Below are positions 26,335 to 30,314 of a DNA stretch of 64,000 nt, piece after piece (position 1 is the first letter of the stretch; the number at the start of each line of letters is the position of its first letter). The position numbers and the translations under genes are program-made. The notes beneath the pieces are model-generated. The model saw only the letters and a program-made list of their open reading frames with translations. It was not told the DNA's origin and made no database searches. This stretch comes from Streptomyces lienomycini (lineage in GTDB: Bacteria > Actinomycetota > Actinomycetes > Streptomycetales > Streptomycetaceae), in the NCBI RefSeq assembly GCF_027947595.1, contig NZ_CP116257.1, positions 3,224,001 to 3,288,000 of the forward strand. The letters are read 5' to 3'.

Positions 26335-26391
26335 ACTTCCCGGACACCCTTGGACGTGAAGGCCATTTGGCTACCAGAGGGAGATGGTGAA

Positions 26392-26580
26392 ATGCCTTCC
26401 AAGGACAAGGTGCTCGAGGAAGTCACCCGCACCGAGAACATCGACATCGACGCGGCACTCGACCCCGCCGAGCCCGACGGAGTCTTCCGCGACAGCCGCG
26501 AGTGCGCCGCGCTCGCCCTGCAGTCCGGAGGCACCAGCCTCCTGCTCTCGCCGCCGACCCCGCGCCCGAAGAAGGGCTGA
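26392..26580 (+). CDS. 62-residue peptide, candidate RiPP-like precursor
   Basis: The peptide starts MPSKDKVLEEVTRTENIDID, an acidic helical segment resembling a leader, then a Pro/Asp-rich linker, and ends with CAALALQSGGTSLLLSPPTP plus the basic tail RPKKG. It has one Cys, at residue 38, so lanthionine rings are unlikely. GAGGGAGA lies seven bases before ATG 26392; in-frame TTG 26311 and GTG 26356 are less likely. No signal peptide is present. It is followed after 20 bases by four overlapping genes that appear to serve it. The small size, leader-like acidic start and operon position suggest a modified peptide; that is inference and no modifying enzyme of a known class is present. Confidence 0.7.
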   Translation: MPSKDKVLEEVTRTENIDIDAALDPAEPDGVFRDSRECAALALQSGGTSLLLSPPTPRPKKG

Positions 26581-26600
26581 CGGACCGACGGGAGAGTGAC

Positions 26601-27308
26601 ATGGAGCAGTCGAGCACGTCGGCCCTCCTGCAGGGCACGGTGCTGGACCTCGCTTCCGACGTGGTCTCCGCTCTTCGGAGCGGAGACCACGTGCGAGCGG
26701 GGAGCACCCTGACGACAGGCGGCGCGGGCGAGGGCGTCGCGCGTGCGGCGGTGCGCGTCCTGGGCGCCGACACCCTGCTGCCCAGCGTCCTGCTGCGCAT
26801 CGCGCCCGACCCCGGACAACTCGCCGTGTTCAAGGACGCCGTGGCGGCCCATCCGCCGCGCGAGGACGCACCACCCACCGTCGTGTGGAGCCACTGGGCC
26901 ATGGCCCGCGCCCTGCGCCGGACCGAGCAGCCCCTCGCCGGCCCGCTCGCCGACGAGCCGGAGGCCGCACCCGACGCCCGCTGGCTCGACGACGCGAGCT
27001 GGCAGTTCCTGACCCACCAACTCGCCGTGCTCGCCCCGCTCGCGCTGCCCGGCGAGGAGTGCGCGGTGACCCGCGCCGCGCGCCGCCGTCCCGTGGACGT
27101 CGCCCGCGGCTTCGTACGGGCAGTACGCCGCCGCGACTGGCAGCAGGCGGCCGGAGCAGGGCGCTGGCTCACCCTCCTGGACGGGGTGCCCGACACCCTC
27201 GGCCTCGACTCCGGGCTCGACTTCGTACGCCTCATGGGCGGCTCCGACCCCCGGGTGGCGCTGCAACTGGAGGCGGCGCGGCTGATGCCGGCCGGGGTCC
27301 TCCTGTGA
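26601..27308 (+). CDS. unknown helical protein of the peptide cassette
   Basis: The 235-residue protein has no domain I can name. It is predicted helical and Ala/Leu-rich, with conserved-looking elements VVWSHWAMARALRRTEQPLA and WLDDASWQFLTHQLAVLAPL, and a C-terminal half (FVRAVRRRDWQQAAGAGRWL, LDFVRLMGGSDPRVALQLEA) that may form a helical bundle. The ATG at 26601 has GGAGAG five bases upstream. The coding region contains a 15-bp hairpin at codons 20-31. It overlaps the next gene by four bases (GTGA). It could recognise the peptide, but nothing shows this directly. Confidence 0.8.
   Translation: MEQSSTSALLQGTVLDLASDVVSALRSGDHVRAGSTLTTGGAGEGVARAAVRVLGADTLLPSVLLRIAPDPGQLAVFKDAVAAHPPREDAPPTVVWSHWAMARALRRTEQPLAGPLADEPEAAPDARWLDDASWQFLTHQLAVLAPLALPGEECAVTRAARRRPVDVARGFVRAVRRRDWQQAAGAGRWLTLLDGVPDTLGLDSGLDFVRLMGGSDPRVALQLEAARLMPAGVLL
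26659..26692. promoter_or_regulatory. 15-bp hairpin with TTCG loop inside the second cassette gene
   Basis: Bases 26659-26673 pair exactly with 26678-26692 around TTCG, the most stable RNA tetraloop. It sits 58 bases after the start codon of the unknown protein, just downstream of the peptide gene. It could attenuate transcription or stabilise the peptide mRNA, giving more precursor than enzyme. Confidence 0.65.
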
Positions 27309-28318
27309 GCGTCCGCGATGTGCGGGCCCGCGCCGTGCGGGTCCGCCGCGCGAGCGTTCGGGGCGTCGAGGAGGCCGCTCTCGACTGGGTGTGGGCCCAC
27401 CGCGACCGCTTCGCGCTCGGCGACGACGCGCTGGCGGCCGACGGCCAGGTCAACCGGACCTGGAAACCCCTGGGCGAACTGACCCAGGTGTGCGCCTCCG
27501 TGTCCCGGAGCACCCCGCCCGGCGACCCCCTGCACACCCGCGTGTCCGAACTGCTGGACTTCGCCTGGCAGCAGACCCACCGGGGCGAACTCTTCCCGCT
27601 CATGCAGTCGCTGGAGCCCTTCGCGACCTACCCGCTGGAGGTGTACGCGGCCTTCGCATCGGCCGGACTGCGGCACCCCGGCTACGAGGCGTCCGCCGCC
27701 GTGGTGGCCCGCACCCGCGGATGGCGGCTGACCGAGCAGTACCCCACCCGCCGGCTCGGCGTGCTCGAGGCCGAGCGGCGCAGCGGCCTCCCCCCGCACG
27801 GGCGCGTCCCGCAGGCACTGGACCGCACCTGGCTGGGCGGTCTGCCGGAACCGTGGACCTTCGAACGCGCGGCCGGTTACGCGCTCACGCACGTCGTCTT
27901 CCACCTCACCGACTGGGGACGCGCCGCCCGGGGCGTGCCGGCGGACCTGGCGGACTACCTGCTGCACTGGCTACCGCCCTGGCTCGACACCTGCCTGGAC
28001 GCCCGGATGTGGGACCTGAGCTGCGAACTGCTCGCGGTGGCGGCCAGCCTGCCGCGCCCCCTGGAACCGGCCGTCCTGGACGACGCCTGGCAGCGTGTCG
28101 CCGCCGCCCAGGACACCTCCGGCGCGGTCCCCGAGGAGGGCGCGGCCCAGGACGCCGCCGGGGCCGACCCGGGCCCCGACCCCTACGCCTTCACCGACTG
28201 CTACCACTCCACCCTGATGGCCGCGTTCGCGGCGTCCCTCACCACGGCCCGGCCGCGGGACGTGCGCGAGGGCCCGCGGCCCGCCGGGCGGCCCGCCGGA
28301 CAAGGAGCGCAGGGATGA
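27305..28318 (+). CDS. DUF6895-like helical protein, paralogue 1
   Basis: The 337-residue protein shares clear motifs with the next gene: LDWVWAHRDRFALG, TWKPLGELTQVCAS, PTRRLGVLEAERRSGL, LPEPWTFERAAGYALTHVVF followed by HLTDWG, and FTDCYHSTLMAAFAAS at the end. I recall this pattern as DUF6895, a family of unknown function; the label is from memory. Its DNA starts with a GTG overlapping the previous stop and ends in an ATGA overlap. The His, Asp and Tyr residues in FHLTDWG and YHSTL are candidates for a catalytic or metal site. The protein has no signal peptide or membrane helices, so it acts in the cytosol, plausibly on the peptide. Confidence 0.8.
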   Translation: MSVRDVRARAVRVRRASVRGVEEAALDWVWAHRDRFALGDDALAADGQVNRTWKPLGELTQVCASVSRSTPPGDPLHTRVSELLDFAWQQTHRGELFPLMQSLEPFATYPLEVYAAFASAGLRHPGYEASAAVVARTRGWRLTEQYPTRRLGVLEAERRSGLPPHGRVPQALDRTWLGGLPEPWTFERAAGYALTHVVFHLTDWGRAARGVPADLADYLLHWLPPWLDTCLDARMWDLSCELLAVAASLPRPLEPAVLDDAWQRVAAAQDTSGAVPEEGAAQDAAGADPGPDPYAFTDCYHSTLMAAFAASLTTARPRDVREGPRPAGRPAGQGAQG

Positions 28319-29235
28319 CGGACACCCGCCTGATCCACCGCGTCGGAGCCGGTGCCCTGGAGTGGCTGTGGGCCCACCGCGACGGGTTCCGGCTGGAGCC
28401 GGACGTGGACCCCGAGACCGGGTTCCTGGAGCGCTTCAAGCCGATCGGTGAACTCGCCCTCATCTGCAAGGTGCTCTTCCGCGAGGGCGTGGCCGGGTCG
28501 CGGCAGGCGCAGCTCGCGCGCCAACTGCTCGACCACACCTGGCGCGAGACCCTCGACGGCGGACGCATGCTGGTGCGCGGCCAGCGCGTCGAGCCCTTCT
28601 CGCCCGTCCCCTTCGAGGTGTACCTGCCGTTCAAGGAACTGGGCTACAGCCAGCCCGAGGTGGAGCGCGCCACGGTCCTCAACCACCGGCTGGACAGCTG
28701 GGCGCGGTTCCCGGTGACCCCGACCAGGCGCCTGGGCCTGTCCGCCTTCCAGCGCCGCTTCGGCCTGACCGCGCGGCCGCCCGAGGCGGACCTGGCCGCC
28801 GCCACCTGGCTGGCCGGCACCCCCGAACCGTGGACGGTCGAGGGCCACACCGCGTACGACATCACGCACACCGTCTTCCACCTCACCGACTGGGGCGAGA
28901 ACCCCGGCGGCCTGCCGCCCTCCGTCGCCGACTACCTCGCCACCTGGCTCCCGGTCTGGATCGACGACTGGCTGGACCTCGAACGCTGGGACCTGCTCGG
29001 CGAACTCCTCGTCGTCGACGCCTGCCTGCCCCGGCCCACCCTCGACGAGGCCGCCTGGCAGGGCTTCGCCGCCGCGCAGCAGCCCGACGGCGCCATGCCC
29101 GCCGTGCGCACGATGCCCGAGGGGGAGCCCGACGCCGTGTTCGACCTGGTGTACCACCCGACGCTGGTCGCCGCCTTCGCCTCCCTGCTGGCCACCTCCC
29201 GCGCCCTCGCCGAGCTGGCGCACTCCGCGTCATGA
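28315..29235 (+). CDS. DUF6895-like helical protein, paralogue 2
   Basis: The 306-residue protein is a paralogue of the upstream gene: LEWLWAHRDGFRLEPD, FKPIGELALICKV, PTRRLGLSAFQRRFGL, EPWTVEGHTAYDITHTVFHL plus TDWG, and DLVYHPTLVAAFAS. It lacks the Asp/Gly-rich insertion present before the last motif in paralogue 1. The segment WQGFAAAQQPDGAMPAV resembles the Q-x-x-DG repeats of terpenoid-cyclase-type alpha-alpha toroids, so an (alpha/alpha)6 barrel is possible. Translational coupling through ATGA overlaps on both sides implies that the two paralogues are made together, perhaps as a heterodimer. Confidence 0.8.
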   Translation: MTDTRLIHRVGAGALEWLWAHRDGFRLEPDVDPETGFLERFKPIGELALICKVLFREGVAGSRQAQLARQLLDHTWRETLDGGRMLVRGQRVEPFSPVPFEVYLPFKELGYSQPEVERATVLNHRLDSWARFPVTPTRRLGLSAFQRRFGLTARPPEADLAAATWLAGTPEPWTVEGHTAYDITHTVFHLTDWGENPGGLPPSVADYLATWLPVWIDDWLDLERWDLLGELLVVDACLPRPTLDEAAWQGFAAAQQPDGAMPAVRTMPEGEPDAVFDLVYHPTLVAAFASLLATSRALAELAHSAS

Positions 29236-30314
29236 CGGGCCGTCGCACGCCCTGGCCGGGCGAACCGGCCCCCGACGAGCACACCCCGCCTGAGCCCCCC
29301 GTACCGGCTGACGAGGAGAGGCTGCGCGAACGGCTGGCCGAGGCCGTCGACGCCGCCGACGCACCCGACGTCGTCCTCGCCGTCTCCCGGCGCGGCCGGC
29401 GCACCCTGCACAGCGGCGGCACCGCCCCGCCGCCCGACGTCCCCCGCGAGGACCTGCGCTACGAGATCGGGTCGGCCTCCAAGACCTTCACCGCACTGCT
29501 GCTGACCCGGCTGATCAGGCGCGGTGTGCTCACCGGCGGCGAGGCGGCCGTCACCTGCCTGGAACCCGGGCGCCCGGCGGGCCCGCACCCCGTGACGCTC
29601 GCGCACCTGATCACCCACACCGCGGGACTGCCCGCCCTGCCGGCCGACTTCGTACGCCGGGGCCTGCCCGCCTGGCGCACCAACCCCTACGCCCGCTACC
29701 CGGCCGAGCGGCTGACCGGCGCCTTCCTCGGCCACCGTCCCCGCCACCGCCCCGGCACCCGCTGGCACTACTCCAACTACGGCGTCTCCGTGCTCGGCCA
29801 CGCGATGTCCGCGACCATCGGGACCGCCTGGGAGGACCTGATGACCGGGCAGGTGCTGCGCGCGCTCGGCCTCAGCGGTACCGCCCTGCGCGCGGAGGGC
29901 CCGCTGACCGACGCGGTGGGCCACCGCAAGGACGGCCGTACCCCTGTCCCCGCCTTCGACGCGGGCGGCTTCCAGGCGGCCGGTGCCGTCCGGTCCACCC
30001 CGCACGACCTGCTCACCTTCCTCGAAGCCCATCTGGACCCGGCCCGCTCACCGGCCGCCGGGGCGCTGCGGGCGGCGCGGGTTCCGGTGCTCAGGCGGGG
30101 GCTGGGGCACCGGCACGTGCACACGGTGGGGTGGTTCCGGCACCCCACCGACGGCGGGCCGATGTACTTCCACAGCGGCGCCACCCTGGGCCAGCAGGCG
30201 TTCCTGGGCTTCCGGCCGGACACGGACACGGCCCTGGCCGCGGTGTGCTCCCGGCGGTTCCGCGCCCGGGACCCGTTCATCGCCACCGCCTACGCCCTGC
30301 TCGCGGAGGGATAG
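29232..30314 (+). CDS. beta-lactamase-fold serine hydrolase of the peptide cassette
   Basis: The 360-residue protein is a class C beta-lactamase/esterase-type serine hydrolase. The nucleophile motif is GSASKTFTALLLTRLIRRGV (S-x-x-K) at about residues 77-96, the second motif YSNYG (Y-x-N) at about 178-182, and the C-terminal strand region has MYFHSGATLGQQAFLGF, where HSG replaces KTG as in esterases and D-peptidases. There is no signal peptide, which is unusual for the fold and places it in the cytosol. It ends the cassette and overlaps paralogue 2 by four bases. It could cleave an ester or peptide bond in the cassette product; inference. Confidence 0.88.
   Translation: MTGRRTPWPGEPAPDEHTPPEPPVPADEERLRERLAEAVDAADAPDVVLAVSRRGRRTLHSGGTAPPPDVPREDLRYEIGSASKTFTALLLTRLIRRGVLTGGEAAVTCLEPGRPAGPHPVTLAHLITHTAGLPALPADFVRRGLPAWRTNPYARYPAERLTGAFLGHRPRHRPGTRWHYSNYGVSVLGHAMSATIGTAWEDLMTGQVLRALGLSGTALRAEGPLTDAVGHRKDGRTPVPAFDAGGFQAAGAVRSTPHDLLTFLEAHLDPARSPAAGALRAARVPVLRRGLGHRHVHTVGWFRHPTDGGPMYFHSGATLGQQAFLGFRPDTDTALAAVCSRRFRARDPFIATAYALLAEG

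Follow-up and report, generated by a model that had tools for sequence, protein, structure and literature searches.

A conserved five-gene cassette in Streptomyces with a precursor-like peptide, two DUF6895 proteins, and a cytosolic serine hydrolase: a candidate RiPP-like pathway

INTRODUCTION

In cyanobactin-type precursors, conserved recognition sequences bracket a short core that varies, and a comparable arrangement is found in a 62-residue peptide that heads a five-gene cassette of Streptomyces lienomycini, the subject of this study. The cassette lies on the forward strand at positions 26392 to 30314 of the window, by which we mean the whole 64,000-nucleotide stretch analyzed (3224001-3288000 of contig NZ_CP116257.1, in a single-contig genome of 7.86 Mb), and it encodes the peptide, a protein of no known family (gene B), two DUF6895 paralogues, and a serine hydrolase. 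Unlike the cyanobactin type, it has a different peptide tail and, by Pfam, no subtilisin-like protease or YcaO among its five genes.

Pathways that resemble those of ribosomally synthesized and post-translationally modified peptides (RiPPs) are already known as a kind, and a DUF6895 epimerase has been published, going by the title of Shi et al. (ACS Catal. 2026, 10.1021/acscatal.5c08590, cited in PMC13352647), which names a DUF6895 lasso-peptide epimerase. Likened to the cassette by title and domain name only, that system has in common with it the domain and a ribosomal peptide substrate, whereas no lasso cyclase or leader peptidase was found at the cassette, which instead has a pair of paralogues together with gene B and a hydrolase of S12 type. 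Another lasso-peptide epimerase, MslH of MS-271, is described as metal dependent (PMC10406935); by that description, it would share with the role proposed here for DUF6895 the epimerization of a ribosomal precursor and differ from it in its metal dependence. In nonribosomal pathways, penicillin-binding protein (PBP)-type thioesterases such as SurE join an N-terminal L-residue to a C-terminal D-residue, according to the accessible text of PMC11735501. These enzymes and the cassette hydrolase have in common a serine catalytic domain with a PBP-type Ser/Lys motif, and the scheme proposed below would follow the same logic in needing a D-residue at the junction, but the thioesterases bear a second, lipocalin-like domain and serve nonribosomal peptides, whereas the cassette hydrolase has one domain and its peptide is ribosomal.

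A preliminary description of the locus, made from the sequence, had drawn a parallel with SCO0753-SCO0756 of Streptomyces coelicolor. A small peptide heads the operon in both cases, but the parallel is not borne out: SCO0753-SCO0756 encode a hydrophobic peptide without Cys, an HlyD homologue, and ABC transporter components, and the accessible part of the source mentions no DUF6895 or hydrolase there (PMC6629963). No description of the cassette was found in a literature search that left most subscription papers outside its reach; motif searches of the literature returned no paper, and for hydrolases of this sort in connection with RiPPs, only work on nonribosomal peptides was found. Here, we describe the distribution, conservation, and predicted structures of the cassette. 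We assign a probability of about 0.58 to the reading, drawn by analogy, that the five genes would form one RiPP-like pathway with epimerization of the peptide and its S12-type release or cyclization.

RESULTS

Distribution and constancy of the cassette

The five-gene cassette is a real and widespread unit in Streptomyces. PF21836, the DUF6895 family, was matched in 92 of 199 sampled Streptomyces genomes, in 66 of 121 genomes of the family (14 of those 66 belonging to the genus), and in 7 of 396 genomes of the phylum, a count that includes one match outside the genus that was weak and below threshold. Of the 199 Streptomyces genomes, 60 contain the peptide of the double-DUF6895 cassette. Co-occurrence in these genomes was counted over the 150 DUF6895 places that were listed, which come from 90 genomes, with additional matches beyond the list; every one of the 61 peptide matches sits upstream of one of these places at a distance of less than 2.5 kb, and the peptide accompanies each of the 56 tandem DUF6895 pairs among the matches listed. 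Four further peptide-bearing places have only one DUF6895 among the matches listed (G and L numbers are our labels): paralogue 2 is split between frames in two of them (G027 and G197), a second, unlisted DUF6895 is present in the third (G112), and the match begins 85 bases from a contig end in the last (G073).

Gene order was compared in two sets of loci. Sixty stretches were chosen by hand from the hit lists and fetched, including 20 pair loci from top-scoring places, and their genes were called with a home-made GC-frame caller. All five genes were matched in all 20 pair loci, with paralogue 2 split in L043 and the hydrolase in two stretches in L051. The second set comprised 80 named loci, the best among 376 that were confirmed with paralogue 2, and hence favors close kin; in 74 of them, the five genes stand in the same order, and the other 6 are cut by contig ends (hydrolase missing in 4, peptide in 2). 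The split of paralogue 2 across two frames is seen in L193 as well as L043, and both decay and sequencing error are possible.

Neighboring genes were considered as parts of the cassette and rejected. Among 21 pair loci (window included), the upstream neighbors of the window cassette (MMPL, MscS, and a methyltransferase) recur in 4, and of its downstream neighbors on the opposite strand, the protease is found in 11 and PhoD in 7; none of the flanking gene families is common to all of these loci. Since flanking genes recur in some loci only, the five genes are the constant unit. A plasmid of Streptomyces fungicidicus also bears the cassette, adjoining the same protease and PhoD neighbors. The preliminary description had considered the missing exporter and immunity gene notable. 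The five genes indeed include no exporter, regulator, or immunity gene, but the lack of an exporter does not set this genome apart, because no flanking family recurs in all loci. An anti-phage defense system was also considered and rejected (0 PADLOC families for the five proteins at E ≤ 0.1).

Layout of the cassette in the window

The peptide gene (26392..26580, forward strand; ATG at 26392, stop at 26578-26580) encodes 62 residues with a single Cys and is preceded by a GGAG ribosome-binding site at 26380..26383; GGAGATGGTG ahead of the ATG is prominent in an upstream alignment of 79 sequences. A gap of 20 bases separates its stop from the start of gene B (26601..27308, forward strand, 235 residues), a candidate adaptor. 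Then follow, all on the forward strand, DUF6895 paralogue 1 (27305..28318, 337 residues, GTG start), paralogue 2 (28315..29235, 306 residues), and the hydrolase (29232..30314, 360 residues), with successive overlaps of GTGA, ATGA, and ATGA from gene B onward. The layout, coordinates, overlaps, and FHLTDWG motif present in both paralogues agree base for base with the preliminary description, which had spoken of DUF6895-like proteins and a beta-lactamase fold. Here, "like" was too weak: profile searches against Pfam make paralogue 1 (E = 4.4e-91, 305.7 bits) and paralogue 2 (3.4e-84, 283.1 bits) clear members of PF21836, whose cut-off is 23.8 bits, and the hydrolase a clear member of PF00144 (2.3e-48). 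The paralogues are the only two DUF6895 matches in the window's own genome. The Pfam scan of the five proteins found no family for the peptide or gene B, and NCBIfam returned only sub-threshold matches, all to the hydrolase and mostly to class C beta-lactamases.

A precursor-like peptide with a hypervariable hexamer

A protein database search returned 310 relatives of the peptide at E ≤ 0.01, of which the best 120 were listed. Conservation was measured on 92 peptides (85 distinct), namely, the window's own, 78 from the named loci, and 13 from the 20 pair loci. Per-column entropy over the distinct sequences sets apart a conserved, putative leader or recognition part at residues 18-43 (26443..26520, forward strand; window letters DIDAALDPAEPDGVFRDSRECAALAL), a hypervariable hexamer at residues 44-49 (26521..26538, forward strand; 1.1-2.9 bits), which is the candidate core, and a near-invariant tail, LLLSPPTPRPKKG, at residues 50-62 (26539..26577, forward strand; 0-0.5 bits), which is the candidate follower. 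Twelve residues are invariant in 85/85 distinct peptides (L23, P25, E27, R33, D34, R36, P54, P55, P57, R58, P59, and K60), and the single Cys is kept in 83 of the 85.

Codon changes follow the same partition. In 2,851 of 3,081 pairs drawn from 79 peptides, the pairs being non-independent, synonymous changes make up 64% of differing codons at residues 18-43, 15% in the hexamer, and 93.5% in the tail, a tail figure that is somewhat inflated, as a script filter dropped 230 pairs differing at residues 54-61. The contrast between hexamer and tail stays large despite this filter, and the six tail residues invariant in all distinct peptides independently support the constancy of the tail. The peptide has features by which RiPP precursors are recognized: a conserved short sequence under coding constraint and in fixed linkage to candidate enzymes, and a leader and core that evolve at different rates, residues 2-17 being variable too. 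The precursor role, and with it the term precursor cassette, is well supported by these sequence comparisons and in our judgment very probable. We infer that the peptide is post-translationally modified. The preliminary description had joined a small precursor, a co-conserved paralogue pair, and a cytosolic hydrolase in one system, and homologous operons do keep the peptide with its frame conserved.

Short open reading frames (ORFs) are frequent in the G+C-rich DNA of the window, and the peptide might on that ground be taken for a chance or nonfunctional frame upstream of an enzyme operon. That reading is refuted by the database relatives, by the 61/61 co-occurrence, and by the dominance of synonymous change in both the tail and the conserved part. 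A functional peptide could also be an intracellular or membrane small protein (for example, a regulatory or stress microprotein) with a Leu-rich and Pro/Lys tail to which the other four proteins bind, the hydrolase being a housekeeping esterase. The extreme conservation of the tail, the commonness of the unit, and the lack of exporter, regulator, and immunity genes among the five would fit such a protein, but we think it quite unlikely in view of the strong variability of the hexamer, the ability of precursor genes to duplicate, and the recurrence of the DUF6895 family beside RiPP-type enzymes. Duplication is seen in one genome, where two tandem precursor peptide genes stand ahead of one enzyme set (L192, 1737-2314).

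Conservation and predicted fold of the DUF6895 proteins

The predicted structure of paralogue 2 is all-helical, with a mean predicted local distance difference test (pLDDT) score of 89.2 and a predicted template modeling (pTM) score of 0.90. Its best Foldseek matches, all weak, are AprG, glycosidases of families GH154, GH105, and GH88, and class II terpene cyclases, at template modeling (TM) scores of about 0.3-0.5; these suggest, but do not establish, an alpha/alpha-barrel-like fold. When solved structures were searched by sequence with the DUF6895 profile, no credible match emerged. Five residues (T184, H185, F188, G194, and D226 in paralogue 2 numbering) are invariant both in 8 diverse members and in a 40-member alignment, and the conserved residues of the family would suit acid-base catalysis. 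In the DUF6895 tree, paralogue 2 forms one clade (100/100) adjoining the clade of single-DUF6895 proteins, while paralogue 1 was not recovered as one clade in that tree. MslH we take to belong to a protein family other than DUF6895.

The peptide could be a RiPP-like precursor and the DUF6895 proteins perform some other alpha/alpha-barrel acid-base chemistry (cyclization, dehydration, or sugar or prenyl work), with the hydrolase acting as a leader or follower peptidase, an alternative that we consider conceivable but on balance doubtful. None of the weak structural matches listed above is a known peptide epimerase, and paralogue 2 is just 23-25% identical to the two DUF6895 proteins of a radical SAM cluster described below, so their functions may differ. 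Conversely, the invariance of the five residues suggests a single DUF6895 chemistry, and epimerization, known from a title (PMC13352647), is the sole DUF6895 activity found in the literature.

The serine hydrolase and gene B

PF00144 spans residues 33-357 of the 360 residues of the hydrolase, which carries the SxxK, YxN, and HxG (KTG-equivalent) motifs of S12/class C-type enzymes as SASK, YSN, and HSG. Among 66 relatives, SxxK, YxN, and HxG are each present in 66/66, and the stricter H[ST]G is present in 52/66. The enzyme is predicted to be cytosolic, as no hydrophobic N-terminal segment was found in its first 60 residues (maximum 19-residue mean, 0.75). Its solved-structure relatives include alkaline D-peptidase, D-Ala-D-Ala carboxypeptidases, and ClbP, enzymes that act at D-residues. 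A resistance class C beta-lactamase was rejected as an identity for the hydrolase, which scores 66.3 bits against a cut-off of 415 for the NCBIfam model NF033085 and has no secretion signal. A further match of the hydrolase, to a minor-tail family of phages for which lysin activity is annotated (phrog_382, 3.4e-19), probably reflects only the shared beta-lactamase fold.

The gene B model is likewise all-helical (pLDDT, 87.5; pTM, 0.86), and neither a profile sequence search nor Foldseek gave a credible solved-structure relative. Two possible kinships of gene B were rejected, one as a degenerate DUF6895 (hhalign probability, 0.6) and the other with a 164-residue ORF ahead of the DUF6895 gene of Cupriavidus (E = 0.60).

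Sister and distant DUF6895 systems

A sister version of the cassette has four genes, with a single DUF6895. Its peptide differs from the cassette peptide in sequence (24 sequences give the consensus ...epEa..SdAP.y.Pea..G.Lll.llLl-SPKePke) but is built on the same overall plan. This sister peptide was found in 24 of 28 single-DUF6895 loci with gene B examined; the remaining four include two with divergent candidate peptides (L172 and L187) and two in which none was seen (L054 and L182). L182 is also without a hydrolase match, and L185 is a DUF6895 match without other cassette genes. A Kitasatospora fiedleri plasmid (L190, NZ_OX419520.1, 6950-9945) carries a cassette of the single-DUF6895 kind, peptide included; the match to the hydrolase is in two stretches there, and the annotation shows just a short serine hydrolase.

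More distant relatives adjoin enzymes of RiPP type. Four loci (L061, L062, L064, and L066) belong to one type of RiPP-like cluster, in which a pair of DUF6895 genes shows the same spacing in 4/4; all four also have an acidic peptide, MPENTN...GCI[IV]NNSSD[IL]S, upstream. In L061, a radical SAM protein lies between the two genes; its nearest family is that of the TIGR04463-type RiPP maturases, although at 115.9 bits, it falls far under the cut-off of 525; a glycosyltransferase-like gene stands before this group, and a major facilitator superfamily gene and a prolyl oligopeptidase gene stand after it. A DUF6895 gene is also carried by a betaproteobacterial plasmid of Cupriavidus oxalaticus (L189, NZ_CP038636.1, 1577-14293), with a cupin gene about 2 kb away and a LanB-type dehydratase gene 3 kb away, both on the opposite strand, and with large ORFs (1040 and 705 residues) without a Pfam match after it. 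These neighborhoods, together with the title naming a DUF6895 lasso-peptide epimerase (PMC13352647), make the earlier statement that none of the genes matches a known RiPP enzyme too strong. In L057, L065, L067, and L181, a small conserved protein, MSC...RKALxFL, precedes DUF6895, which is longer than usual in the first three of these loci.

DISCUSSION

In the pathway that we propose, the all-helical gene B protein would hold or present the leader while the two DUF6895 proteins epimerize residues in or beside the hexamer, a role suggested by their family membership and by the lasso-peptide epimerase reported for DUF6895, taken as an analogue. The hydrolase, cytosolic and of S12 type, would then form an acyl-enzyme at a D-residue and either free from the tail a short product that contains a D-residue or join the ends of the product, which might be exported by a general transporter or be active inside the cell. 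Epimerization and then the action of a serine acyl-enzyme with a preference for D-residues would, by analogy, make a coherent two-step scheme.

Several observations weigh against this pathway. At residues 2-17 of the peptide, variability is similar to that of the hexamer (0.8-2.8 bits over the 85 distinct peptides), and therefore, variability alone singles out no core; the whole-gene NG86 ratio of nonsynonymous to synonymous rates (dN/dS) relative to the window peptide is only moderately low (median, 0.47; 90 pairs). The Foldseek matches of paralogue 2 are weak (best E, 0.014, with none ≤0.001), and D192 and Q255, which do not vary among the 8 diverse DUF6895 members, are only conserved in at least 90% of the 40. 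For gene B, the Foldseek matches are nonsignificant (best E, 0.41) and mostly to helical-repeat proteins. The best solved-structure matches of the hydrolase are class C beta-lactamases, and it is without the C-terminal lipocalin-like domain of PBP-type thioesterases. No lasso genes adjoin the cassette: lasso B-type leader-binding or peptidase proteins and asparagine-synthetase-like C proteins are absent from the five genes and, by Pfam, from nine flanking proteins, and none was found beside other DUF6895 genes in the flanking proteins scanned, which cover part of the loci. Nor is a dedicated exporter evident at the cassette.

A bolder version of the proposed pathway, which we regard as improbable, would make the cassette a separate RiPP class in which the hexapeptide receives one or two D-residues at its edges from DUF6895 and a single-domain S12-type enzyme uses a D-residue for release from the PPTPRPKKG follower, possibly as a head-to-tail ring. 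If true, ribosomal peptides would have their own equivalent of the logic that PBP-type thioesterases follow with nonribosomal peptides, present in ∼30% of the sampled Streptomyces genomes.

The strict filter of decRiPPter, as outlined in the accessible text of PMC7794033, demands a transporter, a regulator, and a peptidase, so that a cassette of this sort could be dropped. DUF6895 and the peptide are found in 92 and 60, respectively, of the 199 genomes sampled from Streptomyces, a genus heavily mined for natural products. If the peptide is epimerized and released by the S12-type enzyme, the cassette would provide a compact route by which four proteins make short peptides with D-residues, and a function would be assigned to gene B and to the cassette's branch of the DUF6895 family.

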